From Xiphophorus maculatus (taxonomy: Eukaryota; Chordata; Actinopteri; Cyprinodontiformes; Poeciliidae): a stretch of 64,000 nucleotides of DNA. Under the pieces are notes generated by a model that did no database searches, was not told the origin of the DNA, and saw only the letters and a list, made by a program, of their open reading frames with translations. The position numbers and the translations under genes are program-made. Shown here piece by piece: positions 29,118 to 61,200 of this stretch; the stretch's first letter is position 1; each line of letters begins with the position of its first letter. The DNA is taken from the NCBI RefSeq assembly GCF_002775205.1, contig NC_036456.1, forward strand, positions 8,769,463-8,833,462. Reading direction: 5' to 3'.

Positions 29118-29182
29118 TTTTTGTTTGCATGTTTTCTCTTTTGCTGCGCATTTGCACCTGTCGGCCACCGTAGAACGGAACT

Positions 29183-29455
29183 TGTCTGACTGCATTGTGC
29201 CAAGTGTACTGTTTAGCGGAGGGAAGACTATGGCGTGGGCTTGTTTTTCAGGAGCTGAGCTTTGCCTTTAGTTCCAGTGAAATTAACTCTGAATGCTTTC
29301 AGCATACCAAGACATTTTAAACATGCTCCCAATTTTGTAGGAACAGTTTGGAGCTGGCCCCTTCCTCTTCCAACATGACTGTGCACCAGAGCACAAAGCA
29401 AGGTCCATAAAGACATGGAGTCTGGTGTGGATGAACTTGACTGGCAACACACTCT
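29183..29455 (+). mobile_element. Tc1-like transposase fragment
   Basis: The segment from CTGCATTGTGCCAAGTGTA through GAACTTGACTGGC matches the well-known central/C-terminal region of fish Tc1-like elements as I recall it. It is broken by indels and lacks terminal repeats here. Confidence 0.7.
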
Positions 29456-30527: not shown

Positions 30528-31946
30528 CTATACTGCTGCTTCTGTTGCTGCAGGATTCCTCCTTCCTGTCAATGGAGAGATAATTTGGGTCAGATATTCA
30601 TCAGCATGAAAAATTAGTTGAAGAAATGTAAGACTTGAACACATTCAAAGATAAAATCAAATATTATGATTCAGTAATTTATTTCAAACCTTCTGTAACA
30701 AAACATGTCAGGGCAATAAATGGATACAATTAAAATTATAATTAAATTAATCTAAAATAAACATTTTGAATAATAAATCAATAAGATGAATGGAGAATCA
30801 AACCATCTTTTTATTATTCTTTCATTTGTTTTAATTACTAATTTTACTATTATGAAGTATTGAGTGATTTTAGTCAATACTTTATGTCTGTTATGTAGAT
30901 GTTAACCATCTGAACCACATGTTGAGCTGCAGTTACCTGGGTTAATGTTAGCATAGTCAGTATCTTCTGCTGGATGATGAATCTTCTCTGCTGAGATTGA
31001 AGAAAATTAATGTTGAGAAAAATCTTTAAATCATTTTACTTTTTTGTATTTATATGTTGTTATAGGTATTTATGTTCTATATTGGTATATTTAATGTGTT
31101 TCAATTTATCTTCATCAGAGATATTTCAGTATTTTTATCATCTTTCTGTCATCAGTGTCTTTAGCTGCTATAAAACATTTACTTTACCGTTTCCTGAGGC
31201 TCTGCTCAGTTGGATTGTCTCATAGAGGGAAGTGTCACCTAAAGACAATAAAACAAGGTTAAAGTTCAAATGAGTGAAAATTAATAAAATTATCACATCA
31301 ATTTAAAACAAAGTAGATATTCTAATAGTTTATGTTTTTATCTGTTTGATCAGTTTAATATCTTTCCTAACAATATGTTGATATTTGTTTCCAGTGTGAA
31401 TTTTCTTCATTTCATGATTTTGTTTTAACTTTATTTAATGATAGACTGTTGAAAAATACTAACTATTGATCAATACTATTAATTTTTTTTAGCCAAACAA
31501 CATTAATGTAGAAATATGATTCACTCTGTGTTTATTTGTTTTCTTTGTTTATAAAATCATTATTAGAAAAAGTAAAATTATCTCAACTATCATGTGGCAG
31601 AAAGTATTTTGCAGTTCCCATTTCCCACCGCTTGGTGGCAGCAAAGAATGTATTTTAATCACAAAAGTCATGTGTTTTCAGTTCACATATCTGGAAACTA
31701 TAAAGTGATTAAACATTCCAGTTAATCATAAAGATGTTTAATGTGAGACGAACCATGAAGCAGAGAACTGTAAACAGAACCGTCATTCTGGGTCACTTCA
31801 TGATTTGTAGCTGAGGCTGGATTGATGCTCTCTGGTTGATTCAATCTGAAAATAATAGAGACATAAATGCATTAATGGAAGTAATTATTTGATGCATGAT
31901 TAGAAAGAGAGAACAAATATTCTTACTGACCTGTTACTGCTTAAAT
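30528..31946 (-). CDS. Gene C cytoplasmic exons
   Basis: Exons 31946-31931, 31845-31754 (SVYSSLLH), 31238-31188 (SLYETIQL), 30990-30937 (HHPAEDTDYANINP) and 30565-30528 (GRRNPAATEAAV-stop). The motifs are ITIM, ITIM and an ITSM-like TDYANI. Phases are continuous. Confidence 0.78.
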
Positions 31947-34900
31947 CTGCAGGGAAAAAGATATTTAATGATTCATGTTAAAACATTAGAATAAACTTGA
32001 AACATTTTAACAAATAAAGTGTTTGACTGAATATGATCTAATGTGATCATAAAAAGTTTCACCTTTGGATCGTCTGCAGCTCCACAACAAGAGAAGGACA
32101 ATAATGAGAATAATGAGAACGACTCCAACAACTGGTCCAATGATCAACATGACAGGAAATGAAGAACTGACAGGACTGGATACAGTTACTGGAAATAAGA
32201 AACATTAAAAATGAATAAATATTAAATAGCATCAGATTTCATGTCAGTATTATTTGTTTTGTAAAAATGTGATTTCAAACTTGAACGCAGATAAAAATCT
32301 TCAGCACATATTCATAAACTTTCTTGGTCTTCATCTTGTTCCTAAATTAAACTTAAATGTTCTTATTGAATAAAATGAATCAAATATTTTAATCCTCCTC
32401 ACCTCTAACAGACATCCAGCTCCTTGGTGACTCTTTTCCTGAATGTTGACATTTGTAGAAACCTTCATCTGACTTTGACACTGCAGAGATATTCAGCTCC
32501 TCTCTGCTGTCATTATTGATGAGTTTATTATTATGATAGAAAAACACATTGGAGAGAAGATTTTGTTTTATATATCTGCAGCTCAGAGTAACAGGATCTC
32601 CTTCAGTCACAGGATGAACAGGGCTCACCAGGATAACATCATCATGATAATCATCTGTAAAACAATCAGAGGATATTTTGTTGAATAACATCCATTTAAG
32701 CTGCTTTATGCTTTCAATTGCAGCGATATTGTGGAATTCAGTGATCATGGAAGATTTATACTTCATGATACTTCAAACAAAAATGCATTTGTAGTTACGT
32801 TTTATCATTTCTCCTTTTTAGTCGACATGAAGACAAGTTTATTCACAGAAAATAATGTAATGAACTAATATAATAGTTGTTTTACTGTAGATGTTTGCAA
32901 AAACTGTGTTGGAGTCGTCCAACCAGAGTCTCAATTTGAATCTGAAAAATGCTGAGCTCATCACCAAAGATAAATCATCAAATCACAAGTGGAAACGTAC
33001 AAAAGCTGGTCAGCAATGAAAAAAACAGTCTGGTAGCTTTACTGTCAAAATGATTATCATTTTTAACATCTCATCTATTATCTAAATAAGAACACATTAA
33101 TAATTATTTTGCCTCTTTATTATACTTTTACATTGTTTCTTTTTCTATGTAGAGATGCTGGTCTCATTTCCTACTAAAACCAACATATTTGGTTGAAATA
33201 ACTAATTTAAAATCTAAATCTGCCAGTGGTATAAATAATTTTGGGCTAAATTGTTTGTGTAAGTTCGTTTTCTGTCTGTTTCCATGGATCAAGGCCCCAT
33301 TTTGATTTATGCATTCACGATGCAAAGTAAAATATTATCCAACACTAAAACAAGTAATAACTGCGTTGTTGTACTTCAATGAACTCTCTGCAAATATTTC
33401 CTCCAATGCATTGGTTCCGAAAGTGGGGGCAAAAGTGTTTCACTGTAAAAATGGTTTGTAGTTTGTTTTGTTGCAACCTGAAGTGTGAAATAAACTTCAG
33501 TGGAGTTTGAAAACAAAATATGTGAACGGGTTTTTGTCTGGTTGAACAATGTGTGTGCCCAGTTGATTTTTTTTCTATTTTGGGGGGGATTTTATTGTAA
33601 TCCATAGGGGGGTCCAGAAAATCTTTGAGAACCACTGGTCTAATGCTTGATGAATTCATAAATTGGTCAACGAGTTAGAAATTATGTACAAATGGAGTCA
33701 TTTCTTCACTTTTACTCCAAATGATCATCCATCATCTTCTGATCTCTGATAAATCAGTTATCAGTGGGATCTTCCTCCTCATCATCCTCAGGTATTTGTT
33801 CTCAGTTTGAAAGGTAAACCTCTATCAGGTCTTTGCTTCTCTAAGTCCAGGGAATGGGTTAAAAGTTAATTGGACCATGCTGTCCACTTCACAGACTGTT
33901 AAATAAATTATTTGAAAAGGTTATGATGGTTGAATAAGGTTGAAATCTCATTAAATCAGTTTAAGGGAAATTAAGAGGAATAATTCGTTGTTTCTTCAAG
34001 AAATTTAATATTATCCTTTTCCTACCTTTATGTTGGAAAGAAAATCAAATAAGTAATCACCCATGTAAAGATAGAAAATGTATTTGCTGATGAAATAAAA
34101 CTCATCAAACCATTTTTTCAAGTTTGTACAATATCTGTTATATTTTACAACGAATCAGAGTTGATCTGAGGAGAATAAAGCAAAGATAGTAAAAATTAAT
34201 GTGGCACATTTTTAAAGACAAATGTCAAAGTGCTTCACAGTGTAACCTAACTAACTGCACAACAAAGTACAATACAAAAAGTAAAACACAATACAATCCT
34301 AAATGCATATAATAAATGCTCAAGTCTAACTAAACGTTTCCTGGAATAAAAGTGTTCAAAGATTTTAGCTTTGTATGAGCAGCAGAACAATTGATTAGAA
34401 ATAATTTACATCAAGAATAACAAAATCAATATTTTAATCTGAATGTTTAGTTTTAAACATCAGGAATAGTATTTTTCTCTTTTTTCCACCTTTTTTAAAT
34501 ACCAAAAATATCCTGATACCACCCAACTACCGTTAGAACATTAACTGTAGTTATAATGGAATAGAAGATAAAAATGAATCTAGGCAAAAACCTTTTTTTT
34601 TGCTAAATTAATTATTCTTGTGATTTAACCTTGGACTAAACATATTATTGCAATAATAGATATATTCATGATTTTTAAATGCAAAAATATGGTTAAAGAA
34701 TAAAAACCATAATAAACCAGATCTTACCCTGTAGAGTGATGTTGACAGCGTTGCTAAACTCTCCAGATTTTGACTCACACCAGAACACTCCATCCATATA
34801 ATAGTACGGGTTAATGGTACATGTAGATCCAGTCATTTTTCCCCAGTAGGAGCAGTCTGACAGTCCGTCTCTTTCTGTAAACATCATCACTCTCCACTCA

Positions 34901-40347: not shown

Positions 40348-40618
40348 GGAGAAATTAAGTCTAAAATATATATGACATCAATAAGTTTCATGCTTCTACT
40401 TCTTAGTATCACCTCTCTGTGTTTCCTTCCCTTTCATACTAACTTCACACCACAACAGCCACTGAGGCTGCAGCACTTGATGCTGGTTTGTATTTCCTGT
40501 CCGTTGCAGAGATATTTTAACCTTATGCACAAAATGTTTTTTGCAGGCTCGCACAGAAACATCCAAATAAACAAATAACATTCCAGTTAATCATAAAGAT
40601 GTTTAATGTGAGACGAAC

Positions 40619-40811
40619 CATGAAGCAGAGAACTGTAAACAGAACCGTCATTCTGGGTCACTTCATGATTTGTAGCTGAGGCTGGATTGATGCTCTCTGG
40701 TTGATTCAATCTGAAAATAATAGAGACATAAATGCATTAATGGAAGTAATTATTTGATGCATGATTAGAAAGAGAGAACAAATATTCTTACTGACCTGTT
40801 ACTGCTTAAAT
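40619..40811 (-). pseudogene. Orphan cytoplasmic exons between genes C and D
   Basis: Exact-looking copies of the 16-nt exon (40811-40796) and the 92-nt ITIM exon (40710-40619, SVYSSLLH) of gene C lie here without TM or terminal exons. The copied block (40580-40905) abuts the upstream region of gene C. They lie downstream of gene D's last exon, in the same orientation, so use as alternative 3' exons of D is conceivable but unsupported. Confidence 0.75.
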
Positions 40812-40905
40812 CTGCAGGGGAAAAAGATATTTAATGATTCATGTTAACACATTAGAATAAACTTGAACAAATAAAGTGTTTGACTGAAAATGATCTAATG
40901 TGATC

Positions 40906-42686
40906 ATAAAAAACCCAGAGGTGTGAAAAAACAGAGGAGAGTTTAGAAACACTGTGGTGGAGGTGAAACAGGAAAGACCAAGTTCTTAAGCTCTAAAAAT
41001 ATGCAGCAAGTAAAGAACATGGTCATGTTGAAATAAACATTTAATCTTCACCTCACATTTATTAAAAATGTATTATAGAGATTCAAGTCAACAACGGCAT
41101 ATCTAAATAATAAATTTTTTGGTTATCAAAACGGTCAACATGCTGCCTTAATGTGAGTTTTTCCATTTGACTCTTATTGTGCATGTTAGCACTGAGCTAA
41201 TGTGGCTTAGTGCCACACCAACAGGGGGAGCCAGTGAGTCAGAACCCAGGGAGGCAGAGACCAGCTGCCTCCCTGGGTTTGAATAGAAAATTGTAATCCC
41301 AGTGGGAGCACCAGAGTACTATCATTGTGTGAATTTGAGCATATTTTAAATTAGTGAAAGTAATTTCATGCGAGTGAGTCTTTTCTAAAGCTGCAGAGGT
41401 AGTGAGTCAGAAGAGGAGCAGACTGAAGACACATTAATCTTTTTTTTTTTTTTTTAATAAAAATCTTTGAATGTTATTCATTCAAAGATTCAATAGATGT
41501 TACTATTTAGCTCCATACACTATTTCAGAGTGTTTCGAGCGCTTGGAAGCAACAGGCCATTTTCAGATCAACTGCCTCAAAGCGGTTCAGTGTTACAGGA
41601 AGCCTCAGTTTCACCATCAATACCAGAAACCATGGAGGAAACAAGCAGCACAGAGACACATCTACAGACCACCAGCAGTAACTGAAGGCTCTGCAGCTGC
41701 TTAGATTCTCAGCACCTTGATGAGGATGATGGAAAACACCTGGGCAGGTGGCCCAGCGGTATCAAACAAAGATCCTTAGACAAGGATGACACTCTTGGAA
41801 GAAAAAAAAACCCCATCAGAATCCTAATAAAGACTGATACTAGAAAAAGGTGCATCTCATTGGGATTTTCTGAATGTCCATCAAAAAGCAACTAACTGTT
41901 AGAAGGTGGAAAATAAAACGTAACTTTAACATTTTCTCACAAATAAAATTATTGCATTCATGTCAGGCCCCTTCACTATGACGATTATGCTCTATTAGAG
42001 GTGACAAGTGTAGAAATAAAGTCTTCAGCGTGGGGGGTCGCGACCCCTGCGCACGAGATTTCTGATTAACTAGTAGACATTAAATATTTTGGTATTTTTT
42101 TTATTCATTATTATGTCTTTGAATACACGTTAACATGAATCCAACATGTAAGAAATTGATTGAAAAAGAGGCATAAAATGATGTTGACCAGTCATAAATG
42201 AACACATTCAGCAATCAAAAATCTGTACATTGTGGTAAAAGTTCAGCATTTCTGATTTGGTTTGAATAAACGCACGGTGACTAATCAATCAGCGACCGAA
42301 TATTTTAGAAATGCAACATAAAAACACATCAAATAACTAAAACAAAAATATATGAATTATAATTATATGGTTAAAAAAATACTAGGAGTGGGAGATACTG
42401 TAAAACATATTATGCATTTGTAAAATAAACCATAAAAAATATACAAAAATATTTAATGTATTCAAACTTCACCATAGCCTCTGTGAACGACTAATAATTT
42501 CTGGAGTTTAAAAAAAAAAAAATTATCAGCATAACTGAGTGTTTTTCAGAAAATGTGGGTGTCTAACACAGTTCTGTACAGACTTTTAAAAACACATGAA
42601 AAATGTAAGAAAATAAAGCATTTAAGAATGTTGTTGTGAGATTACCTCGTGTAATAAATCCCGTAATAAGCCAGTAAAATGTGAAG
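40906..42686. other. Intergenic segment between genes C and D
   Basis: AT-rich DNA with a poly-T tract near 41438 and a MITE-like GGGGGGTCGCGACCCC end near 42032. No gene is recognised; it should include the 3' UTR of gene D. Confidence 0.5.
41243..41279. repeat. 15-bp perfect hairpin
   Basis: AACCCAGGGAGGCAG and CTGCCTCCCTGGGTT separated by seven bases, in the intergenic DNA between C and D. No associated gene or terminator function is evident. Confidence 0.6.
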
Positions 42687-43272
42687 CTACATGATATCGT
42701 TACCCACAGTTGCTCTTGTTCTGATTTCAGAATAAACTTCATCTGCTGCTGCAGGACTTCGCTTTCCTGTGAATGAAGAGGCCATTATTAATTCTTATAT
42801 ACTCAACCAAAGAGACTGCGTGTCAAACACAAGACATATTAGCAAAAAGAAGGATAAATGCAGGCTATATCTTTACCTTTCTGCTTTTTCTGATAGTTCA
42901 TGTTAGCATAAATTGGAGTTGAGTCTGAAACAGAAAACGTCAGAGTAATGATACAGTGATGTCAGATTTATCAGTTTCTGGTGTTGTCTAGAGTTAGTAT
43001 GTAGTTAGTCAGGACAGCTGATAATCTGACCTGAAATCATCTGCAGCGTAAAGACATGAGGACATATTTCACTACCAAGAACTCACAGTTTTCCCTGAAG
43101 TTTCTCAGTTCAATCTGGGAGTATGCAGGAGGTCTGGGTTTGTCTGCTACTGAAACATATCATGTTTATAGATTAGTTAGTGATTCTCTCAAATTAAATA
43201 GCACAGAAATGACATGTTGAGCCTTACCATTTCCTGCTAATGTGGAAATATTCACTGAGTCGTAGAGATGAA
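42687..43272 (-). CDS. Gene D cytoplasmic exons
   Basis: Exons 43272-43228 (VHLYDSVNISTLAGN), 43149-43087 (VADKPRPPAYSQIELR...), 42924-42877 (DSTPIYANMNYQKKQK) and 42766-42687 (GKRSPAAADEVYSEIRTR..., TAG at 42689-42687). There are four YxxI/V/M motifs, spaced too widely for an ITAM. All splice sites are canonical and the phases agree. Confidence 0.76.
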
Positions 43273-44428
43273 CTGACAGAAAAGAAAACAGAGTCAGAAG
43301 CTTTTAAAAATTGAAATAGGTGAAATAATTACAATTCTAGAAAATAAAAATGGACTTTTTCTTTTCATCTTGTTTTTTCAGTCACTTGTTTGAATCTCAT
43401 TTAAATTAAGGTTTTATTTTTATTACATGGCATAGAGGAGAAGTTCTGACTTCTAAAATATTACACATATACTGAATGTAGTAGAAAACTGCCAGTAATT
43501 TATGATAGAAAGAAAAAGAAAGACTAATTTAACAAAGCACAATAAAAATGATAAAGAAAAATGCTTTTGCATTATTTAACTTAAGCCTGGATTTTGTGCT
43601 ATAGCATCACAGTACATCTAGAATAAAGATTTTTTTTTTAAATGAACAATCAGATCTAGTATGAACAGAAAAATGTCTCACCGTTGTTCCGTCTGCAGGA
43701 CAAGAACAAGAGCAGGAGGAGAACCAGAAGGATTTTAACAACTGGTTCGATGATCAACAGCACAAGAAATAAAGAGCTGGCAGGACTGGACCCAGTTACT
43801 GAAAACAAGAAACATCAACAAGGAAGAAATATTTTTGATCTGCAGATTGTGTGACATTTTCTGCTTGAAGAAAAAGTGACTTTATGCTAAATACTAAAAA
43901 TCTGCTAGAACATGCTAAGAAAACAGGATGCTAAAAACATCCTCAGTGTTCACCTTGCTCTTCTACAACATTTCAAGTTTCAATGAATAAAATGAACCAA
44001 ATATTTTCATCCTCCTCACCTCTAACAGACATCCAGCTCCTTGGTGACTCTTTTCCTGAATGTTGACATTTGTAGAAACCTTCATCTGACTTTGACACTG
44101 CAGAGATCTTCAGCTCCTCTCTGCCGTCATTATTGATGAGTTTATTATTATGATAGAAAAACACATTGGAGAGAAGATTTTGTTTCTTATCTCTGCAGCT
44201 CAGAGTAACAGGATCTCCTTCAGTCACAGGATGAACAGGGCTCACCAGGATAACACCATCATGATCATCATCTGTAAAACAATCAGAGAATATTCAGTTC
44301 AGGAACATTTCTTTAACCTGTGTCAATAATTTAAAGTGTAATGTTATTTTTTTGCAGACAGCAAAGTCTGTGTGATCAGATAAAATAAGGTGAAGCTAAT
44401 GGTTCCCACAGTATCCTAATGACCATAA

Positions 44429-44459
<31 letters not shown>

Positions 44460-47400
44460 CTGTTGTTCCTGGGGCTACAACAGATCCCAGGAACAACATT
44501 AGACATCTCAGTCCAGAAATGTGCAGTCCTTGGCACAGCCAAGATACTGCGCAGAACCCTCAAGCTCCCAGGCCTCCGGTAGAGGACCCGAGCTCAGAGG
44601 ATAAGAACCACCCGCGGTGGGTGAGAAGGGAATTTTTAAATTTTATATATCACTTATCAGACACACACGTATATACAGTATATGTGTCCGTAGTTCTCTA
44701 GATACAGGTGATCAGCTGCACATGCAGGCTGCAAAGTGAGATACATGTTTTCGGTTTTGGTGGTCAGCAACAAGAGACAGTGACCAGCGATCACCGATCA
44801 TACACTTTGTCACAGAAATCGGCCGATTGTCATTGGTGCCGATCGATCGGTACACCTCTAATATTTAGTCATTGCTTTATTTTTTACTAGAAAAGGTCGT
44901 CCATCTTTTCCTGAATTCTGATAAAATAGTTGATCTTTGTGGTCTTCTTCCACTTTATCTCCTCATATCCTCTAGTCTTTGTTAACCTCAGCTTGAAAGG
45001 TAAACAGATCTGTGCTTTTTCAGGAAATGACTTAATTTGGATAAAGCCTCAAAAAAAAAAAAAAACAGTTTAAGGACATTTTTGAAAACAGTTTAGACAA
45101 TAGAGAAAAAAAAACAACATAACCATAAAAGCAAATGTTTCCTGGAATTATGTCTTTAGGCCAAAAAGGGACACAGTCTTTAAAATGACATAATCTGATT
45201 ATTTGAGTTTACCTTTGTATAAGCTATACAGCAATCCATTGGAAACCATTTACATGATGGGTGATCAATTTTACATTTTAATCTGAATGAATTTTAAACA
45301 GTGAGCAAAACAAAAAAAATAAACTATCTGATACCATAATGGAAGAAAAATGGCACAAAAATCCTACACAATAGATTATTTTGTGATTTAACCTCAGTCT
45401 ATACTATGATATTTACAATATTTAATATATTTTCAATGTTTAAAGAAAGAAAAACAAATAATAAGCCAGATCTTACCGTGTTCAGTGATGTTTACTGCGT
45501 TGCTAAACTCTCCAGATTTTGACTCACACCAGAACACTCCATCCCTATAATAGTACGGGTTAATGGTACATGTAGATCCAGTCATTGTCCCCCAGTAGGA
45601 GCAGTCTGACAGTCCATCTCTTTCTATAAACCTCATCACTCTCCACTCAGTAGAGTTTCCCTCACAGCTCAGAGACACAGAGTCAGATCTGAAGTGTTGA
45701 ACTCTGTCAGGATTCACTGAGAGAGAAGCTGCTGGACGAGGATCTGAAAACAAGACAGGATTTCATCTGAGAACAGAAACATCTTTAAAATGTTTCATTA
45801 AAATGGTTTGTTTCTATAGTAATAAAGATTACAGGAAACATTTATTTCTCCTTTAAAACTTTTCAAATATTTCATCAAAGTACAAAATATTTGCAAATAT
45901 TTGATGTATTTTAATGAAAGTACAAAACAATAACAGATTCCCTCTGGTTTACACATTTCTTTAAGATACAGTATTTTGCTTGTTTTCTTATTGTTTTATT
46001 TTAAATGAAATAAACTATCAAAGCAGAAATAATGATTTCATTTTTTACAAACTCACATTGGATTTTAACTGTGAATGTTTATCAGCATTTCCTGATCAAT
46101 GTTTTTATCTTCAAACTTTAACATTTATTGTCTGGATTTGTCAAAAGTCTTCACAAAGTGAATTTTTTACCACATATTTCATTCAAGTTACACATAAAAC
46201 AAATACAAACATTACAGTAAGAATCCAGGGTAATTCATGCTTATTATCCTACATTATGAATGATCCATCAATTTATATTTTTATTTCTAATGTCATGTTA
46301 ATTTCCAACATCTTAAAAAAAATCTAAATAAAATAAATATTGGATCAGGATAAAAACCTCAAGTTATTTTTATTGAGGTGAAAGACAGAAATAAACTGAC
46401 CTGCAGACCAGATAAACTTTGGTTCACTGTAATAAGTGTAAAACTTTGGTTCTCCTCTTTCTGCTCTGCACACAAATCCTGCTGTGTGAGTCGATCCATT
46501 AATGATGAAGGAGTTCTGCTCAGTCCCATTGGTGCTGCCAGGAAGCATCTCATAGCTGTAGTATCTGCGGGGTGGATCAGGAACAGCTTTATACCAGAAG
46601 AACCTCCATCCTGCTGATTGAAGCTTCAAACCCTCACAGCTCAGAGTCACTGAGGCTCCAGGATTCGGCCATGATGGAGACACAGAGAGGACAGGCTGAG
46701 GGGGAAACGCTGGAGAGAGATTTGAAACTGGGTCAAACATTTGTCCTGAACATCTCTCATCTTTTCCTTTTAATTCTTTTTAAGGGTTATTTTTCTATCA
46801 GATATATTTAAATCAAAGATTTACATTTTTTCTTTTACATACTGTATTTCATTTGTTTTTTTATTACTATTTTAAACTTCATCTAAATTCACATTGCATT
46901 TTTAAATGTTGAGTTTCAATTCAACTCCCCAGTTACACTTATTGATATAAGCTGTTAACTTTTTTTTAAAACTTTGATCAAGGTTTCTCTGGACTTTCTG
47001 AGGGGCATCAATATCAACTATAAATACACTATTAAAAATACACATGGTAGCAAATTTAATCCAGTTTTGGATTAAAAAAAGAAGAAATATTTTGTTTTTT
47101 TTCCGAAGAGTTTTTGCGGCGCTAGTGGCTCGTATTTTTTCGACAGTAGGCAGACAGGAAGGAGGGTGAGGAGAGGGGGAAGACATGCGGCAAAGGTCAT
47201 CGGGACCGGGAGTCGAACCCACGACGAGGACTAAGGCCTCCAAACGTGGGGCGTGCTAACTCCCTGCACCACCACAGCACGCCTCTATTTTCTGTTGTTT
47301 AATTTAGTTCCTGCAAAAAGGGAAATAAATACAAAGCATTTTCAGGTTGAGTTGAGGTCAGTCTGACTCACATATCACAGTCAGTCTGACAGCATCACTC

Positions 47401-50400
47401 CACTCTGTTAGCTCAAAGTTTCTGTTTCCTCTGCAGCTGTAATCTCCACTGTGGGACTCAGTAATGTAGTTGATGCTGTATTCACTGGATGATGGAAAGT
47501 TTCCATTGGTTGATCTCCATTCATACGTCCACTCAGTTCCTCCCTGGATCTCACATCTCAGAGTGACTTTCTCTCCTATGTAGATCTGAGACCAGTTGGA
47601 TTGCAGAATCAAACTGGGTTTATTGGGAGCTAAAGAAATAAATATCTGGTTAGCAGTTTACCACAACAATCCAGAGTAAAATTTAAGTGTTAATTTAACA
47701 CTTTCCCTGAGAGAAGCTACTTTCTAAAATCATTTAAAAAGTATCAATGTTTCTTCCAAACTGTCCAGCAGCTCCTTTAAGATTAGTTTTTATTTTATTT
47801 AATAAGAACCTTTCAAAATAAAATGACATCAGCTTAACTTGTAGCAAAGCAGAAAGAAATTAAGAGTGGGTTTCAGATTTTTAAATGCTGCTTGGTTGTT
47901 TATGTTTTTAATATTAGTTATTAATAACTAACTAGTATTAGTTAGTTAACCTGTGTTAAACATGTATTTTATAACATAACAAAAATATGCTTCACCTATA
48001 CCAATATGAAAAAATGATTCAATCAGGAAAAAAAACTACAAGCATCAATGGCTGCAGATCAGTGTTATGCCATCATTATGGGCTAACACAGCAAAATGGC
48101 CGCTAGCAACAATTTCTGATTCCTTTTGTGGGTCTCTATCAGCTACGACCTAAACAGAGCCTAGTGTGTCACTTCCTTTGACCTTAGCTCTGCGCATCTG
48201 TGCACTATGTGTGTGTGTGTGTCTGTTTCTGTCTGTATACAAGCATGCAGGCAGCTAAAAGAAATAGAGAAAAACAGAGAATTATTTATTCCCAACAAGT
48301 TTCATAAAGTAGACAGTGTTAGTGTGGATGGAGAGCGGCCATTGGTTTGTTTATCAAACATAAACATAAAATCAGAGAAAAAAAAAAGGATTTTGTAGAT
48401 TTGGTTTCGGACACTTTTCAAGAAGGAACTCACAGGTTGTTTTAATGGTAACGTCTTGGCTTACAAGGCTGATGATAGCAGGATTTCCTCTCACTCCTGC
48501 ACACCTGTAGATTCCTCCTTGTGTCACAGTGATTTCTCTGTTTTCTTCATTATTTGTTGTGATTTCAGCTTCAGGAGTGTCTGAGGTCCGTCTGAACCAT
48601 CTATACTTCCATCCAGCAGAGGGCTCCACTGAGCAGCTCAGTGTCACACTGCCCCCTACTGGTATGGTTGATGAACCTGCTGTCAATGTGGCCGTGGGTC
48701 TGTCTGCTGTTAATAGAAACAAAAATAAGTACATCTTACAACAAAAGACATGAAATAATGTATTTTTCTAAGTCTTAAAGTAAATATATGTTCATAGTAT
48801 AATATGACTGGTTATATTTATTTACTCAGAAAATATAATAAAATATCAATCAATGTTATTTTTACATCATTAAGTTAACGAGGTAATTAAAACAACAACT
48901 TTGTTTTTGTCCACAGAAAAATCCAGTGGTTGGTTCTCAAGTTAAACATTTTTTAAATTAGTTTTGTTGTGTTTTATGATTTGTGACTGACTTCATTTTG
49001 CATAAAAAAACTCACAAAGGCAGTAATACTGCCAGTAAGATGATCAGATTATCCTTGTGTATACAAACAAATAAATAAATAAATAAACAAAATATCTGAA
49101 ATGAAGTAGAGTAAAAATATGGATATACTTTGTCAAGGTTATCCTTCATTGGTTAGGGTTAATATGTGATTTAAAATACTTCAGGTTTATCTAACACAGT
49201 GACAATATTACTGCAGTTTGTTTGATTTGAGCTCCTCCTACGACCACAGCACTGATATTCACCACTATGAAGAAATAACGTGCTGCTTTTATGTGGTATG
49301 TAGGACAGATATGATTTATTATTCCTGTTCAGCTTGTATTCCCAGTCAGAATCTTCTCCTTCATTCATGTCACATCTAAAGGTAACAAACTCTCCAGAAT
49401 AAAAAGTCGACCAGTTGGGCTCAATAGTCAGCACAGCATCTAAAGCAGAACCAACATTTAGTTAATTTCTTTTCTAGTTAACAATCACTGACAAAACACA
49501 AAAAGAGTGAAAATACAAAAACACAGTAAGATGTGAAATACAGGAGTAAAGATGAGCAGGGCCGTGCAGAAACTTTTGGAGGGCCCCAAGGCCCCAAAGT
49601 TAAAAAGGGGCACATTGAACAAGATCTTAAAACATCCTACAACAACATAGCAACAGTAAATATTAATCAACATTAAATATTAACCAAAAATCTAATATTT
49701 ATTCGATCATACTGTTTGCAGAATCAAACAGGGTTAATTGGGATCTATTTTGTGTTTGTTTAAAAAATTACAATGAAGTCAGACTTTGTTAGCAAATTAG
49801 AACATAATTAAAAGTTGGTTTCAAATTCTTGGGCAATAAAATAGATCATAAATACCAGGTTATATTTAAAATTATATTAGCATTTTGATCAAATTGAGAT
49901 ATATAGAAATGATCAGGGAAAATATGAATTTAATTCGGAAATTAATTGACAGCATAAAACAGCAGCAGCTGCGTGATTGTTGTTGGAGCTTTTTAAATGC
50001 TGCTTGGTTGTTTATGGTTTTTAATAATAGTTATTAATAACTAACTAGTTAGACAACACAGCTTAACTAACTGTGTTAGTTACTAACACATAGTTCATAA
50101 CATAACACAAATATGTTTCACCTATACCAATATGAAAAAATGATCCACTCAGGAAAACATTACAAGCATCAATGGCTGCAGATCAGTGTTATGACATCAT
50201 TATGGGCTAACACAACAAAATAGCCGCTAGCAACAATTTCTGATTCCTTTTGTGGGTTGTGTGTGTGTGTGTCTGTTTCTGTTTGTATACGAGCATGCAG
50301 GCAGCTAAAAGAGATATAGAAAAACAGAGAATTATTTATTCCCAACAAGTTTCATAAAGTAGACAGTGTTAGTGTGGATGGAGAGCGGCCATTGGTTTGT

Positions 50401-53400
50401 TTATCAAACATAAACATAAAATCAGAGAAAAAAAAAAGGATTTTGTAGATTTGGTTTCGGACACTTTTCAAGAAGGAACTCACAGGTTGTTTTAATGGTA
50501 ACGTCTTGGCTTACAAGGCTGATGATAGCAGGATTTCCTCTCTCTCCTGCACACCTGTAGATTCCTCCTTGTGTCACAGTGATTTCTCTGTTTTCTTCAT
50601 TATTTGTTGTGATTTCAGCTTCAGGAGTGTCTGAGGTCCGTCTGAACCATCTATACTTCCATCCAGCAGAGGGCTCCACTGAGCAGCTCAGTGTCACACT
50701 GCCCCCTACTGGTATGGTTGATGAACCTGCTGTCAATGTGGCCGTGGGTCTGTCTGCTGTTAATAGAAACAAAAATAAGTACATCTTACAACAAAAGACA
50801 TGAAATAATGTATTTTTCTAAGTCTTAAAGTAAATATATGTTCATAGTATAATATGACTGGTTATATTTATTTACTCAGAAAATATAATAAAATATCAAT
50901 CAATGTTATTTTTACATCATTAAGTTAACGAGGTAATTAAAACAACAAGTTTGTTTTTGTCCACAGAAAAATCCAGTGGTTGGTTCTCAAGTTAAACATT
51001 TTTTAATTAGTTTTGTTATGTTTTATGATTTGTGACTGACTTCATTTTGCATAAAAAAACTCACAAAGGCAGTAATACTGCCAGTAAGATGATCAGATTA
51101 TTCTTGTGTATACAAACAAATAAATAAATAAATAAAATATCTGAAATGAAGTAGAGTAAAAATATGGATATACTTTGCAAGGTTTGCCATTGGTTAAGGT
51201 TAAAATGTGATTTAAAATACTTCAGGTTTACCTAAAACAGTGACAATATTACTGCATTTTGTTTGATCTGAGCTCTTCCTACAACCACAGCACTGATATT
51301 CACCACTATGAAGTAATAACGTGCTGCTTTTATGTGGTATGTAGGACAGATGTGATTTATTATTAATGTTCAGCTTGTATTCCCAGTCAGAATCTTCTCC
51401 TTCATTCATGTCACATCTAAAGGTAACAAACTCTCCAGAATAAAAAGTCGACCAGTTGGGCTCAAAAGTCAGCACAGCATCTAAAGCAGAACCAACATTT
51501 AGTTCATTTCTTTTCTAGTTAACAATCACTGACAAAACACAAAAAGAGTGAAAATACAAAAACACAGTAAGATGTGAAATACAGGAGTAAAGATGAGCAG
51601 GGCCATGCAGAAACTTTTGGAGGGCCCCAAGGCCCCAAAGTTAAAAAGGGGCACATTGAACAAGATCTTAAAACATCCTACAACAACATAGCAACAGTAA
51701 ATATTAATCAACATTAAATATTAACCAAAAATCTAATATTTATTTGATCATACTGTTTGTAGAATCAAACTGGGTTAATTGGGATCTATTTTGTGTTTGT
51801 TTAAAAAATCACAATGAAGTCAAACTTTGTTAGCAAATTAGAACATAATTAAAAGCTGGTTTAAAACTCTTGGGCAATAAAATAGATCATAAATACCAGG
51901 TTATATTTAAAATTATATTAGTATTTTGATCAAATTGAGATATATAGAAATGATCAGGGAAAATATGAATTTAATTCAGAAATTAATTGACAGCATAAAA
52001 CAGCAGCAGCTGCGTGATTGTTGTTGGAGCTTTTTAAATGCTGCTTGGTTGTTTATGGTTTTTAATAATAGTTATTAATAACTAACTAGTTAGACAACAC
52101 AGCTTAACTAACTGTGTTAGTTACTAACACATAGTTCATAACATAACAAAAATATGTTTCACCTATACCAATATGAAAAAATGATCCAGTCAGGAAAAAA
52201 TTACAAGCATCAATGGCTGCAGATCAGTGTTATGCCATCATTATGGGCTAACACAGCAAAATGGCTGCTAGCAACAATTTCTGATTCCTTTTGTGGGTCT
52301 CTATCAGCTACGCCCTAAACAGAGCCTAGTGTGTCACTTCCTTTGACCTTAGCTCTGCGCGTCTGTGCACTATGTGTGTGTGTGAGGGTGTGTGTGTGTG
52401 AGTGTGTGTGTGTATGTGTATACAAGCATGCAGGCAGCTAAAAGAGATAAAGGAAAACAAACAAGTTTCATAAATTAGACAGTGTTTGTGTGGATGGAGG
52501 GCGGCCACACACAGTTTATCAGTCTCAGTCTGTGGACTTTCCTGCTCTCTGTATTAAAACTGACGGCTTACTTAGATGGACTAAATCGGCCACATATTCC
52601 TATTAAAACAAATTCTATTTAAAGATCAAGCAAACCTAAATTTCCAGATATTATATCTGAAATCCTCATTATCTGAATCTATATTAGATGCATGAAATCA
52701 TATGAATTTAATTGGAATATTCTAGATGGATATTTTAGAAAATCTATATTATATGTCTTTTAATTGTGCTTCATTAATAAAGTTTTCAATTTTGTCACTT
52801 ATAACATCTTTATCTAAATATCTAGACTATACTGCCAGAGAGTCCTATCTGCTCCTGGTAGAGCAGCAGAAAGCAGAGATTCTGTTCAGTTTGCTGCAGA
52901 CCAACTCAAAACAAATCACAACGTGTTAAAGAAAACTAGTCATCTCTGTTTCTACACTGACACATGTAGTCTTCACTGCTGGAATCAGAAACTCAGACAG
53001 TCCAGTCTTTACTGTCTGTCCTGTGTATTATTGACCCAGATCTCCTCCAGTCACACGTCCACTCAGTGGTTTCTCCTCCTGGACCTCACATGTCAGAGTG
53101 ATCGAATCACCACTGAACATCTGAGGCCAGTTTGGTTACAACAAGTTACAACAACCTTGTTGGAAACTGTTTATCAAATGTGAGCAGAAACATAAAATCA
53201 GAGAAAGAGAAAAAAAAGGATTTAATTTCAGACACTTTTCAAGAAGGAACTCACAGGCCGTTTCAATGGTAACGTCATGGCTTAGAAGGCTGATGATAGC
53301 AGGATTTTCTCTCACTCCATCACACCTGTAGATTCCTCCTTGTGTCACAGTGATTTCTCTGTTGTCTTCTTTATTTGTTCTGACTTGATCTTGACGTGTG

Positions 53401-55030
53401 TCTGAGGTCCGTCTGAACCATCTGTACTTCCATCCAGCAGAGGGCTCCACTGAGCAGCTCAGTGTCACACTGCCCCCTACTGGTATGGTTGTTGAACCTG
53501 CTGTCAATGTGGCCCTGGGTCTGTCTGCTGTTAATAGAAACAAAAATAAGTACATCTTACAACAAAAGACATGAAATAATGTCTTTTTCTAGTCTGAAAG
53601 TAAATATATGTTCATAGTATAATATGACTGGATATATTTATTTACTCAGAAAATATAATAAAACATCAATCAATGTTATTTTTACATCAGGCAAATAACT
53701 CTCCAGAATAAAAAGTCAACCAGTTGGGCTCAATAGTCAGCACAGCATCTAAAGCAGAACCAACATTTCTTTTCTAGTTAACAATCACTGACAAAACACA
53801 AAAAGAGTAAAAAGAAAAAAAAACACAGTAAGATGTGAAATACAGGAGTAAAGACGAGCAGGGCCGTGAAGAGACTTTTGGAGGCCCAAAGTTAAAAACG
53901 GACCCATTGAACAAGATCTTAAAACATCCTACAACAACATAGCAACAGTAAATATTAATCAACATTAAATATTAACCAAAAATCAAATATTTATTCGATT
54001 ATACTGTCTTATTGTCATCATGTGGGGACAAAGCAAAACAAATGTAGTCCATGTTTCCCTGATAGGTATAATGTTGCTGTTTCAGCGTTATTATTTGACC
54101 GAGGGCAGCCAGACTCATTTATTTTACTAAATTGTTATTTTTAACTTAATGTTATTGTTAAGGAGCACAAGAAGGTCACCTGATGCAGTAAAAAAAAATA
54201 TGTAAAAAAAAACGAAACTCAAAAAGAGGCACTTGCACTCACTCCCCCTCACCCCACACCTCCACATCGCCCCCTGTGCCAAGGTTTTTATTGAGAGAAT
54301 AAATCTTTAAAATAAATATTAAAAATTAACGTTACCGTGAGTTTGTCCACAGCAGAACAGTGAGTTCAGAACTGAAATAAAGGTTGAAATCTTGTTAGTA
54401 TTATAAATATTTAACAACATAAAATGAAGCAGCAGAATTTTGTCTCACACTCACATTTAGCACCAACTTAACAAATTTATTTTTTTGTTAAAATGCATAT
54501 TATTCAGGATTTTTTTGTTTTGAATAAAACAACATAAATGGTTGCAGCTATCATTATCATAAATATTTTTTTCTGTCTGATGAGATTGAACTGCACTTCA
54601 GAAACTTGACACACTGACAACAAAATATTCTCAGATTTACATCATATTCAGCCAAATTCAGTCGACTTTTAAGTTAAAATAAAAGGTTGAATTGTGAGTT
54701 ACAGGCCACGCCTTCTGGTTCACATTACAGTTTTCATTATACTTTATATTTCCACGTTTTTTACAATCGGCAGAGATAGATTTGCTAATCTCTGTCATCA
54801 GTGAATGTTCCTAATTTATTGGATTATTTATAATGGCTAGATTGTCAAATACTTACAGCATAAAGAAACAATGACAGCAGGATAAAAAAAGCACAAGACA
54901 CATTTCTAAAGCTCCTGTTTTGAACAATAATAATATTTTCCTTGATTTGCACTATTGAAACACAGAAAGCGATTTACTTACACAATAATCCCAGCATAGG
55001 CTCCAAGGTTTTCCCCATCTTGGCTTCCAT
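42687..55030 (-). CDS. Gene D: FCRL/LITR-like receptor with eight or nine Ig domains, charged TM and non-ITIM tyrosine tail
   Basis: Coding exons: signal 55030-54982 (MEAKMGKTLEPMLGLL) and 54371-54336; Ig 53527-53255, 51480-51232, 50756-50484, 49439-49191, 48706-48434, 47629-47372, 46709-46401, 45743-45477, 44271-44020; TM 43798-43682; tail 43272-43228, 43149-43087, 42924-42877, 42766-42687. Total 2,841 nt (946 codons plus stop). Exon 49439-49191 has AT instead of GT at its donor and may be skipped, giving 863 codons in the same frame. The TM contains IIEPVVK where B and C have IIGPVVG. Tail tyrosines are HLYDSV, PAYSQI, PIYANM and EVYSEI; none has the ITIM -2 residue. YANM satisfies both YxxM and YxN. 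The 16-nt and 92-nt tail exons of B and C are absent. The ectodomain grew by a recent two-domain duplication. Confidence 0.76.
43682..43798 (-). CDS. Gene D transmembrane exon with Glu and Lys
   Basis: A 39-codon exon: VTGSSPASS, then LFLVLLIIEPVVKILLVLL and LLLFLSCRRNN. The Glu and Lys replace two glycines of the B and C segments. A basic residue within a TM segment is typical of receptors that pair with ITAM adaptors, but here an acidic residue lies four positions away, so the meaning is uncertain. Confidence 0.8.
44020..44271 (-). CDS. Gene D Ig exon 9 (membrane-proximal trio, third)
   Basis: An 84-codon phase 1-1 exon starting DDDHDGVILVSPVHPV, with TLSCRDKKQ, FFYHNN and YKCQHSG. It is nearly identical to the gene B copies although the surrounding introns of D are more diverged, which suggests gene conversion or selection. 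Confidence 0.82.
44430..44640. mobile_element. (TA)n tract and interspersed-repeat fragment
   Basis: A (TA)n microsatellite (44430-44459) precedes a GC-rich stretch (CAGTCCAGAAATGTGCAGTCC..., CCCGAGCTCAGAGG) that resembles a common fish retroelement 3' region. Orientation and family are not established. Confidence 0.45.
44790..44862. mobile_element. Short transposon-end fragment
   Basis: Ends GCCGATCGATCGGTACACCTCTAA, the style of a hAT-type MITE terminus. Only one end is visible. Confidence 0.35.
45477..45743 (-). CDS. Gene D Ig exon 8 (membrane-proximal trio, second)
   Basis: An 89-codon phase 1-1 exon starting DPRPAASLSVNPDRVQHF, with SLSCEG, TEWRV, SDCSYWG, STCTINPY and VFWCES. Confidence 0.82.
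46401..46709 (-). CDS. Gene D Ig exon 7 (membrane-proximal trio, first)
   Basis: A 103-codon phase 1-1 exon starting AFPPQPVLSVSPSWPNPG, with TLSCEG, GWRFFWYK and GFVCRAERG. It is slightly shorter than the B and C copies around the PPRRYYSYE loop. Confidence 0.82.
47093..47285 (-). mobile_element. tRNA-derived SINE, same family as at 26.7 kb
   Basis: Reverse-complement copy in the gene D intron between exons 47629-47372 and 46709-46401, with poly-T at the left end and the tRNA-like head at the right. Small differences (for example CAACCCACG region) separate it from the copy at 26688. Confidence 0.78.
47372..47629 (-). CDS. Gene D Ig exon 6
   Basis: An 86-codon phase 1-1 exon starting APNKPSLILQSNWSQIYIG, with TLRCEI, WTYEWR and GDYSCRGNR. 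It is homologous to gene B Ig exon 5 and supports that exon as ancestral and lost from gene C. Confidence 0.82.
48434..48706 (-). CDS. Gene D Ig exon 5
   Basis: A 91-codon phase 1-1 exon, the newest duplicate of 50756-50484, with LSCSV, GWKYRWFRR and IYRCAGV. Acceptor TTAACAG and donor GTGAGT are intact. Confidence 0.83.
49191..49439 (-). CDS. Gene D Ig exon 4 (donor site mutated, possibly skipped)
   Basis: An 83-codon exon starting DAVLTIEPNWSTFYSGEF with an open frame. The sequence at the expected donor reads TTAG|ATAAAC, whereas its duplicate at 51232 reads TTAG|GTAAAC. The exon may be skipped, which would keep the frame because both flanking phases are 1. If unspliced, a stop follows downstream in the intron. 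Confidence 0.55.
50484..50756 (-). CDS. Gene D Ig exon 3
   Basis: A 91-codon phase 1-1 exon starting ADRPTATLTAGSSTIPVGG. It differs from the exon at 48706-48434 by a single predicted residue (CAGERG against CAGVRG), which shows a very recent duplication. Confidence 0.83.
51232..51480 (-). CDS. Gene D Ig exon 2
   Basis: An 83-codon phase 1-1 exon starting DAVLTFEPNWSTFYSGEF, with FRCDM, DWEYK and YQCCGCR. Adjacent cysteines at the second core position are unusual. The donor GTAAAC is intact, unlike the copy at 49439-49191. Confidence 0.78.
52373..52430 (+). repeat. TG microsatellite
   Basis: Interrupted (TG)n run inside copy 3 of the gene D duplication; copies 1 and 2 have a shorter run at the equivalent place (near 48208 and 50257). 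Confidence 0.8.
52945..53165 (-). pseudogene. Dead type-b Ig exon in a gene D intron
   Basis: The minus strand resembles gene E's type-b exon (61960-61685) from the SNKV start through the WTC region. It carries a one-base deletion in the VQGGE codons and in-frame stops near the end, and it loses the donor. It shows that gene D once shared the alternating a/b architecture of gene E. Confidence 0.7.
53255..53527 (-). CDS. Gene D Ig exon 1
   Basis: A 91-codon phase 1-1 exon starting ADRPRATLTAGSTTIPVGG, with LSCSV, GWKYRWFRR and IYRCDGV. It is the diverged third copy of the cassette that is duplicated at 50.5 and 48.4 kb. Donor GTGAGT. Confidence 0.82.
53697..53756 (-). pseudogene. Truncated 5' piece of an Ig exon in gene D
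   Basis: Sixty bases match the first part of exons 51480 and 49439 (DAVLTIEPNW...YSGE). A deletion of about 500 bp has joined its middle to the intron, so there is no second half and no donor. Confidence 0.7.
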
Positions 55031-57209: not shown

Positions 57210-58269
57210 TCAGGCTGAGCTGTTATTTCCTGGTCTCACATTGACATAAGCAGAACTTTCCTCTGGATGATGAGGTCTCTCTGTTAAAATTATAACAAGA
57301 ATATGGAAAAAGAAAATAATTAATATTTAGAAATATTCTCATTTTTTCTTCTTCAACTCTTTTTCACTTATTTACCTCTTCTCTTTGTGTATGTCACAGC
57401 TTCATCTGTAATGGAAATATTTCAGAATTTGACATTATATATCCTCTAATCACTTGGTTGTTCCAGCTCTGTAGTAAAATATATACATTACCATTTCCAG
57501 CGGCTCCACGCGGACGGATAATGTGATAGATAGAAGAGGTGCCTATGGTACATAACAAATGTAAAAAAAAATTAATTAATTCATAAAAAGTTCTGATTTC
57601 TGATTATTATTGTATGCAGTTATATAAAATTTCAAGATTTATTTAATTCTCTTTTATATTTTCCTTATTTAGCTGCATCTGAAGAGGAAAGCTGTCAGTT
57701 GCTGTTTACTGACAAACAATAACTTTAATTGCTGAGTTGAAACAATTGTTTCTTGAACTGTTTCAGTTCGTGAAGCAGTTCAGTTTGTTTCATGAATTGT
57801 TTTCATGAAAGCAACTCATGGTAATGATATAGCTGCATTTTGCTAAATTAAGAAACAGAGATATAATCATAGTGGATATTAATGCTGACGTAACGATGAC
57901 GTTTAGCACCAACACATCCCAGGAGTTTAACCCTGTTGTTTCGCGTTTGTCAGACAGAATTAGCTCTATTGTGATATTTTCCTTTGTTATGAAGATGCAT
58001 CACAGCAAAGAAATGACAAAACATTAATTATGAATAATTAAGTTAAGAAAATGCAGTTTTTTTTACTCTGTGACTAACCATGCAGCAGAGAGTTGTAATC
58101 ATTTTCAGTCTTGTTCACTCCATGATTAGTGGTCGGCCTCTGGCTGCTGCTTTCAGACTGAAATGACCTAAAAATATGAAAGTGGATTAAATTCAGTAAT
58201 GACAGAAATGATTAATAGTTCATGATTAAGATGAAATGCCAGATGTTACTAACCTGAGACAGGACAAAT
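57210..58269 (-). CDS. Gene E cytoplasmic exons
   Basis: Exons 58269-58254 (16 nt), 58167-58079 (89 nt, NDYNSLLH), 57542-57492 (SSIYHIIRPRG), 57405-57376 (DEAVTYTKRR) and 57280-57210 (HHPEESSAYVNVRPGN..., TGA). SIYHII and SAYVNV fit the ITIM pattern. The phases are continuous. Confidence 0.78.
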
Positions 58270-61200
58270 CTGGGAAAGATACAAAATACATAATTATTAC
58301 AACTTATGTTCTGTATTTCAAAGCTAAAATACTAATAGCGTTTGATTAATTAACAACGTTAAGAACCAATTTGTTCCGGTATCAGAAGAAAAACATCTCA
58401 CCCTTTGACAGTCGGTAACGCCACAACAAGAGGAGGAGAATGATGAGAATGATTCCAACAAATGGTCCAATAATAGACATCATAGGAAATGAAGAGCTGG
58501 TGGGACTGGACACAGTTACTGGAAATAAGAAACATAAAAAAAAAGCAAATTAGCTGCAGATTTTTACCAAGTCATTCTCTCTATTCCAGAAAAGTGTTAC
58601 TTTAAATTTGAACACACCAGTGCAGTAAGTTATTACCTTGCTCCTTTCTAAATGCTTTAAATAATAAAGAAGATATTAAAATATCAACATTTCAAACGCT
58701 TGCTGCAAGTGGAAATTGTGAAAGGATTTGATCTATGAAAGTTTAAATCTATGTTCATTTGATGCTGATTGTGATACTCCATCACTAGTGACAACACAAC
58801 AACATTAATTACTTCTTGATTTTTTTTTTGTATCAGAAACGAGTCACGTTAAGCTCACCATTCTTAGTGATGCTGATTCTGTCACTGTAGTCTGTGTAGT
58901 AAACTGGTCGTCCTCGTCCTCCTCTGCACCAGTACAGTCCCTCCTCTGAGACACTCATTTGTCCATTTGAAGGGAAAACAGCTTCTTCTCTGGTCAGAGG
59001 CTCTGAGGAGTCTCGCTCTTTGTACCAGAAATATTTCCAACCAGATGACGATGAGTCCACTATACAGGTCAGCGTCACTCTGCCTCCTGCTGGTATCTCT
59101 CTGCTATTACTATTCAACTGGGCCTTTGGTTTACCTGTTAGTGAGTTCACCATACAGAAAATGACAAAAGCATCATTCACTAAACATCAAACTTTGGTTA
59201 AAAGTTCTGAGACTTGCTGTTCCTGGTCTATTTGTCAGAAAACAATATCAATTGTATCTACAGAGAAATAACCTGTAGGGTTTTTTTTCTTTTATCCAAC
59301 AGATATAGGAGAGCAATTTCCCACAGATTAGACAAAACATTGATGATTCACCTGATACAGACAGTCTGATGGTTTCACTCCACTGTGTTGAAGAATACCA
59401 GTCATCTCTGCTTCTACACTGACACATGTAGTTTTCTCTGCTGGACTCAGAGACAATGAAAGTCCAGTCTTTACTGTTTGTCCTGTATATAGCTGTCCAA
59501 GGTGTCCTCCAGTCACACGTCCACTGAGTGGTTTCTCCTCCCTGAACCTCACATGTCAGAGTGATCGACTCACCAATGAAGACAAGAGGCCGGTTTGGTC
59601 GTCGAGTCACAAAGACCTTGTTGGAAACTGTTTCCATATGGACAGTTGTCATTGAAACATGTAACGTTAACTGTTTTTGTACATGTGCAAGCAGTGTTCA
59701 AGAAAACCATTGTTACAATGTAAACAAAATGATTGAACTTACAAATTATCTGGATATTGACCTCATCGCTTGAATCACTGTTGAAATCTTGTTTTTCTCT
59801 AATTCCCATACATCTGTAGATTCCTCCTTGTGTCACAGTGATTTCTCTGTTCTCTTTATTATTTGTTCTGACTTGAACTTCAGGAGTGTCTGAGGTCCGT
59901 CTGAACCATTTGTATTTCCATCCAGCAGAGGGCTCCACTGAGCATCTCAGTGTCACACTGCCCCCTACTGGTATGGTTGTTGAACCTGCTGCCAGTTTGG
60001 CTCTGGGTTTATCTGGTGTTATTGAAAATATATATAGGTACATGTCACAATTTGTTTTTCAACTTATCAAAACAGTTTTTACTGTCATTTTATTATGAAA
60101 TTAATTTTACATGTACAGTCTAAACCAGTGGTGCCCAAAGTTGGTCCTCATCCTGCATGTTTTCGTTCTCTCCCTGGTGGTAGTAACAACCTTTTCAGCA
60201 GGTCAATGTTCTTCTTAGGCCTCTAATGAGCCACCATTTGATCCAGGTGTGTTAAACCAGGGAGAGAACTAAAACATGCAGGATGCAGGTCCTGGAGGAC
60301 CAACTTTGGGCACCACTGGCCTAAATGGTTGAAATATCATAAAACAATGTTATGTTTTTGTCACTCATTTCAGGAAGTGAAGGTGATATATTATATAGAT
60401 TAGTTATATGTATAGAAAATATTTAGAGCATTTGTTTCTTATAATTTGTTTCTAATTTGTTTCTTATAATTTTGACAAATATGACTTATGGATAACAACA
60501 ATCTAAACCCAAATGAAAAGATACTTCACTTTGTTCTGAGAAGAAGACTTTGTATCGCCAGTTCTTTTACTTCCTGTAGCCCAGGTGAGACGCTTCAGGT
60601 GTTGTTTCTGGTTCAGGAGTTTCTTGACAAAAGGACTTTAGACCTTTGTAGCCCACAGGCTTCATCTTCCTATAGTCATGCACTAAGTATTCAGTTCTCT
60701 GCTATAAGTTTGAACTTTTCAGAATTGATTTGGCTCTGATTAGAGTTAAATTGAGTTAAACAGTAAACTTGATTGTGCATCTCTATGGAGATTCATAACA
60801 GTTCCAGTGTTGCTTTTCCAAGTGTTGCTTCTAATTAATATGTAATAGTGCAAAATGACAAGCTACAGTAGTCTGACAGAAGGGAGGCTACAGTTTTGCA
60901 CCATAAGCCCAACATGGTGAAGTGTCTCACCCAGAGACACAAATGAAGAGGGCGGGCAGACCAGGAATCAAACCAACGATCCATCAACTGCAGAGAGAAC
61001 TAATACCTCCATCATCACCATTGTCCACTGAATAGCGTGCTATTTCTGGCTAAATTTATTTCTGTAAAATAATTTAATAAATTAATAAAATGTGCAGGAT
61101 GTATTTTATCAAATATTTTATCTTAAATATTTTATGGTAAATTTATCTGTATGTCTGAGAAATATTTATAGTAAATATTTTAAGTAATTGTTGATTTTAA

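Follow-up and report, generated by a model that had tools for sequence, protein, structure and literature searches.

The window, a stretch of 64,000 nucleotides of Xiphophorus maculatus, belongs to contig C14 of a genome of 704 Mb and carries members of a tandem receptor family, here called genes B, C, D and E. Gene D is a minus-strand gene whose start codon lies at 55030 and whose stop codon lies at 42687. In the splice model its 15 exons, bounded by AG/GT sites and joined in phase 1, remain open over 863 amino acids and give, in order, a signal peptide, eight immunoglobulin (Ig) exons, a transmembrane (TM) segment and a cytoplasmic tail (Table 1). The signal peptide and the TM segment were called by eye and by hydrophobicity. 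The acceptors of tail exons T2 and T4 score 4.5 and 5.2, respectively, the weakest of the 25 training acceptors scoring 5.7. Two other features of the window lie away from gene D. Short repeats with the unit ACACCCCCGAATGAAATGCAGCAAA occur at positions 28000-29200, those on one side being oriented opposite to those on the other, and resemble by eye a large inverted repeat; positions 14001-18000 show a strong GC skew and a G+C content of 0.51-0.55, above that of all other 2-kb bins.

Table 1. Exons of gene D and the features compared with it, in window coordinates.
Feature	Position	Strand	Basis or remark
Gene D exon 1, start codon and signal peptide	54982..55030	-	ATG, GTAAGT donor, in frame with later exons
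Gene D exon 2, end of signal peptide	54336..54371	-	phase 1 splice sites
Gene D ectodomain, 8 Ig exons	44020..53527	-	all open, phase 1; Ig domains by Pfam
Gene D Ig exons, first four	53255-53527, 51232-51480, 50484-50756, 48434-48706	-	splice model
Gene D Ig exons, last four	47372-47629, 46401-46709, 45477-45743, 44020-44271	-	splice model
Gene D TM exon, IIEPVVK	43682..43798	-	AG/GT sites, phase 1
Gene D tail exon T1, HLYDSV (Nck YDxV type)	43228..43272	-	splice model; motif from literature
Gene D tail exon T2, PAYSQI (Csk-type consensus)	43087..43149	-	splice model
Gene D tail exon T3, PIYANM (YxN and YxxM)	42877..42924	-	first codon split with T2, giving Tyr
Gene D tail exon T4, EVYSEI, stop codon	42687..42766	-	splice model
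Orphan mini exon (40796-40811) and ITIM exon (40619-40710)	40577..40912	-	outside gene D in the favoured model
Gene C TM and tail (SVYSSL, SLYETI, TDYANI)	30528..32188	-	comparison
Gene B TM and tail, ending YANC-stop	7245..8489	-	comparison
Gene E TM and tail, I1+T1 = ENDYNSL-x7-YHII	57213..58519	-	comparison

Multiple FcR/FcRL-related Ig domains, a signal peptide and a single TM segment are the marks of an FcR/FcRL-like receptor, and all of them are found in gene D. Among its solved relatives, which include FCRL, FcgammaR, LILR and KIR proteins, FCRL5 ranks first (E 8.4e-36) and FcgammaRI second. Mammalian FCRL5 and FcgammaRI are thus the closest solved counterparts of the ectodomain, but gene D differs from them in belonging to a tandem family in this fish. 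Teleost LITRs, as described in PMC4810170, combine FcR/LRC-related Ig domains with a multigene family that has tyrosine-bearing or charged-TM members, and gene D shows these features too. As judged from its sequence, gene D is an FcR/FcRL/LITR-like receptor. Two further Ig-like exons were excluded from the model: the one near 52950-53170 has a broken reading frame with stops, and the other, at 49.4 kb, has ATAAAC in place of the GTAAAC donor of its sister. Both look dead. Positions 48434-51480 hold two near-identical pairs of Ig exons about 2 kb apart, the 49.4-kb copy being the one without a splice donor, and the repetition suggests a tandem duplication.

The TM exon and the four tail exons join in phase 1, and the protein ends in NDIM-stop. 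The initial annotation had listed four tail tyrosines, in HLYDSV, PAYSQI, PIYANM and EVYSEI, and had stated that all of them lack S, I, V or L at position -2. The motifs are correct and the residue is indeed absent from all four, but the count is not right. The T2/T3 join reads RENYSTPIYANM, where the tyrosine of ENYSTP arises from a codon split at the junction; therefore, with MNYQKK, the tail holds six tyrosines. None of the six matches the canonical ITIM, [SIVL]xYxx[ILV], and a search of the tail for the ITAM consensus YxxL/I-x(6-12)-YxxL/I gave no match. The order of the sites is HLYDSV (Nck YDxV type), YSQI (Csk type), YANM (Grb2 and p85 types) and YSEI. YANM fits YxxM as well as YxN, in agreement with the first reading, and it also fits the loose Csk pattern.

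The weight of these motifs was assessed in 200000 shuffled tails in which the composition and the tyrosine positions of the gene D tail were kept. An ITIM is absent from 78% of them, so that a missing ITIM is, taken alone, weak evidence. YxNM occurs in 1.9% of the shuffled tails, and the succession of YDxV, a Csk-type site and YxN in 0.018%, a set picked post hoc. Among the other 16 tail loci read, S, I, V or L stands at -2 in 25 of 53 motifs. Against this background, the probability of drawing none in four is 0.07 (0.066 over distinct motifs, 0.049 over motifs with I, L, V or M at +3), and the -2 residues of gene D are not a strong departure from those of its paralogues.

The comparison with the paralogues was made after a flank of 280 kb had been added to the window, 18 TM-plus-tail loci being taken from the hits in 344 kb. 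Many further TM exons were returned by a genome-wide search, at 8.4-9.2 Mb and about 6.1-6.2 Mb of C14 and on contigs C66 and C77. The tails of the cluster are assembled from common exons, here named I1, T1, T2, X, T3 and T4. The tail of gene D consists of T1, T2, T3 and T4, without the I1 and X exons of its neighbours, whereas that of gene C runs through I1 (SVYSSL), T1 (SLYETI), X (TDYANI) and a last exon. The latter is 82% identical to T4 of gene D over 39 nt and has a stop at the tyrosine position (compare AAVY in L009). The tail of gene B ends at 7245-7294 in YANC-stop, and genes B and C differ in their last tyrosine site.

It had been proposed that the two ITIM exons shared by genes B and C are absent or altered in gene D. 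The SVYSSL-type exon is absent: no tblastn match to this exon of gene C was found between the TM exon and T1 of gene D. The SLYETI-type exon is apparently altered, in that the HLYDSV exon looks like its counterpart by position and by weak similarity (38% of amino acids, E about 0.2). Homology between the YANM exon of gene D and the YANI exon of gene C was considered and rejected, the partners of the former being PVYADI and PTYAEI exons. These are the motifs of the four assigned T3 exons outside gene D and its second copy, D2; proline at -2 is common to all six assigned T3 exons, and the N and M of YANM are specific to D among the T3 exons read. At the DNA level, T3 of gene D is 82% identical to that of L006 over 51 nt, and T2 is 78% identical to that of L007 and L024 over 91 nt. 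T2 reads VTYSLI, VTYAQI, ATYSLI or VTYTKR in the other paralogues, from which gene D differs in its proline at -2. Histidine at -2 in T1 (HxY) is found in gene D and also in L007, L024 and L029. YDxV and YxxM are confined to D and D2 among the 18 loci.

Gene D is not the sole ITIM-free member of the cluster, an idea that was rejected when a canonical ITIM was found missing from seven of the 18 tail loci (D, D2, L007, L024, L005, L023 and L028). The tail motifs were assigned by hand, and this count covers 18 of the 21 tail loci read; it omits L029-L031, the ENYSTP and MNYQKK sites of gene D, the X exon of L024 (DYRLE) and weak exon matches such as SQEYAEV near L023. An ITSM-like TVYSGI is present in three of the seven (L005, L023 and L028), and some of the seven may be pseudogenes. 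A switch away from ITIM signalling that is particular to gene D, as first proposed, finds no support in these observations, given seven ITIM-free loci, an HxY-type T1 and a T3 proline at -2 shared with paralogues. Two pairs of paralogous tails encode near-identical peptides, L007 and L024 at a distance of 62.9 kb and L020 and L026 at 62.6 kb, and this recurrence suggests a recent large tandem duplication.

The initial annotation had also placed gene D in a cluster of inhibitory receptors. When I1 is joined to T1, the pattern YxxL/I-x7-YxxL/I appears in seven of the eight loci tested, L002 giving no match. Four of the eight (E, L004, L020 and L026) show the full ITAM consensus across I1 and T1 with an acidic residue at -3, whereas B, C and L022 have the ITAM spacing without the acidic residue. 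The ITAM consensus of the former four overlaps ITIM-like motifs. With half of the loci tested matching the ITAM consensus, a purely inhibitory setting for gene D appears doubtful.

Downstream of gene D lies an orphan stretch that contains a mini exon and I1 only. It is 96.5% identical to positions 31712-32055 of gene C, while D and C are about 80% identical around the TM exon. The view of the orphan ITIM as a relic of gene D was rejected as unlikely, since it is a 96.5% copy of gene C; a recent insert fits better, or it may be an old exon that has undergone recent gene conversion. The I1 donor of the orphan, GTTCGT, has a low score, like that of gene C, although the scores of the two acceptors and of the mini-exon donor are good. 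The same weak donor is seen on the ITIM exons of gene C (31748-31753), gene B, L022, L002 and the orphan. Read-through of the orphan ITIM exon would yield a single ITIM and shortly afterwards meet a stop (SVYSSLLHGSSHIKHLYD-stop). An AATAAA lies at 42105, between the stop codon of gene D and the orphan. Splicing of gene D to the orphan exons at 40619-40811, which had been named as an outcome that would count against an ITIM-free tail, is unlikely, given the 96.5% identity of these exons to gene C, the weak I1 donor and a position past the AATAAA, but it keeps some probability, the acceptor scores being good.

The second copy, D2 (L027, C14:8955465-8957043), lies 143 kb from gene D. The two share an identical TM segment and the same four tail exons with one amino-acid change in the tail, and they are 96.3% identical over a 3.2-kb stretch. 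No match to I1 was found between the tail of D2 and the next gene; the similarity of D and D2 ends at 41246, short of the orphan, and D2 therefore shows only that an orphan-free D tail exists. The segment of gene D at about 45204-52081 is missing from D2, and the ectodomain lengths differ. Among the matches listed by a genome search with the gene D tail, in which large families are counted as lower bounds, only two TM matches reach 93% identity, the others being at or below 63%.

The differences between the two copies are unevenly distributed: 2 of 353 nt in the TM segment and tail, 69 of 2592 in noncoding sequence and 12 of 252 in the adjacent Ig exon. By the Fisher test, the TM segment and tail differ from noncoding sequence (p 0.014) and from the Ig exon (p 0.0013); the tail alone against noncoding sequence (p 0.12) and the Ig exon against noncoding sequence (p 0.07) are not significant. 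NG86 estimates for the TM segment and tail are dN 0.0037 and dS 0.0121, the latter representing one change. This pattern favours constraint on the TM segment and tail, although gene conversion could give the same low divergence, and a near-identical copy suggests that the gene D tail is in use. It bears as well on the view that gene D is decaying or chimeric and its tail without use. The frame-broken Ig exon and the donor lost after the 49.4-kb exon do indicate decay in the ectodomain, but with all 15 exons of the model open and with only 2 nt changed between the copies in the TM segment and tail, this explanation is quite improbable.

The TM segment reads IIEPVVK in gene D where genes B and C have IIGPVVG, as originally noted, so that Glu and Lys are spaced i, i+4. 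At the same place as this Glu, L031 (C14:9224491-9224610) has an Arg (IVRPVVG). The membrane-insertion score of the gene D segment is poorer than those of B and C, this score being a crude home-made position-weighted sum that serves as a hint only. A receptor that pairs with an ITAM adaptor is expected to have a positive TM charge and a short tail. Catfish IpLITR 2.6b, which has a TM lysine and co-immunoprecipitates with FcR-gamma (PMC4810170), provides a precedent, and pairing of gene D with FcR-gamma or DAP12 through its own Lys has been considered on this basis. However, a Glu four residues ahead can neutralise the Lys, and for this reason pairing is disfavoured; moreover, the tail of gene D is long and has six tyrosines, whereas that of IpLITR 2.6b is short and without motifs. 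Such pairing is improbable. The Glu-Lys pair would most likely be self-neutralising in the membrane or aid self-association.

The closest match to the order of the tail sites is found in another catfish receptor. IpLITR 1.1b carries, in order, HIYDEV (predicted Nck), AVYAQV (Csk) and a YxN site (predicted Grb2), followed by two ITIMs and an ITSM (PMC4810170). The published Csk consensus is Y[TAS][KRQN][MIVR] (PMC4810170), and YDxV is a Nck motif in nephrin (PMC12203975). Recruitment of Nck to the proximal consensus motif of IpLITR 1.1b is stated in PMC6032007 with reference to earlier work. Co-precipitation of Nck, Grb2 and p85 with the tail is described as unpublished in PMC4810170. Csk recruitment needs tyrosine 453, as reported from imaging and co-immunoprecipitation (PMC7404264). 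Gene D resembles IpLITR 1.1b in the order HxYDxV, Csk type, YxN, matched by motif and order only, in an FcR/FcRL-related Ig ectodomain and in the adaptor-based signalling that is proposed. It differs in lacking the two ITIMs and the ITSM and in having YxNM, YSEI and charged TM residues, and the spacing of the three tyrosines is 21 and 17 in gene D, against 20 and 10 in IpLITR 1.1b. Among the titles and abstracts listed in the literature searches, no description of a teleost LITR with such an ITIM-free tail was found.

These likenesses allow a mechanism to be outlined, modelled on the proposal for the proximal tail of IpLITR 1.1b. The tail tyrosines of gene D would be phosphorylated, presumably by Src-family kinases. 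HLYDSV would then offer a docking site for Nck, YSQI for Csk, YANM for Grb2 and/or PI3K p85 and YSEI for an SH2 protein, and ligand binding could thereby be coupled to actin remodelling (target capture, phagocytosis) with braking mediated by Csk. The favoured reading is that D and D2 are FcR/FcRL/LITR-like receptors with a tail that binds adaptors and not SHP phosphatases, signalling to actin and PI3K under the restraint of Csk. It is judged about evenly balanced between right and wrong; confidence is reduced because the Nck and Grb2 sites of the catfish receptor are predictions. More tentatively, D and D2 might be a stand-alone LITR proximal adaptor cassette (Nck, Csk, Grb2/p85), free of ITIMs and with a buried Glu-Lys TM pair, which needs no ITAM adaptor to drive PI3K signalling and the capture of targets by actin.

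Inhibition could also persist in the absence of ITIMs, by way of Csk bound at YSQI or of non-canonical sites that engage SHIP or SHP-2. The Csk-type motif of gene D fits the published consensus, and IpLITR 1.1b is reported to block NK killing through Csk without ITIMs (PMC4810170, PMC7404264). Nevertheless, in the phagocytosis assay of the same receptor Csk without SHP-2 did not start inhibition (PMC7404264), and YDxV and YxNM are also present in the tail of gene D. An inhibitory role of this kind is unlikely.

A different outcome had been suggested from YANM, namely co-stimulation as in CD28, and this motif is indeed present. According to this explanation, YANM recruits p85 and Grb2, dominates the other sites and gives a positive signal; YxxM is found in none of the 16 other tails read and is kept in both copies of D, and, as stated above, YxNM is rare in shuffled tails. 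CD28 has the tail motif YMNM, and its family is marked by a YxxM/YxN tail motif and an ectodomain of a single V-type Ig domain. Gene D shares the YxNM pattern, but it has at least eight FcRL-type Ig exons, more tail tyrosine sites and no CD28 ectodomain. Moreover, a Csk-type site, which would inhibit, shares the tail with YANM, and the other sites are left unexplained. The suggestion hinges on a single motif, whereas the sites taken together in their order are closer to IpLITR 1.1b, and CD28-like co-stimulation is rather unlikely. By analogy with the catfish receptor, the ITIM-free tail of gene D has probably retained docking sites for actin and kinase adaptors that are already known from fish, and has not turned into that of a CD28-like co-stimulator.

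In IpLITR 1.1b, adaptor sites and ITIMs occur on the same tail, and mutagenesis was therefore used to separate their roles (PMC7404264). If the adaptor-docking reading is true, D and D2 would be natural receptors with the adaptor part only and would offer a direct test of ITAM-independent phagocytic signalling. More broadly, the tail exons of the cluster seem to behave as modules, retained in some of its many paralogues, lost from others and variously combined, and the tandem ITIM-like sites at ITAM spacing in the neighbours make an "inhibitory" label based on motifs only unsafe.
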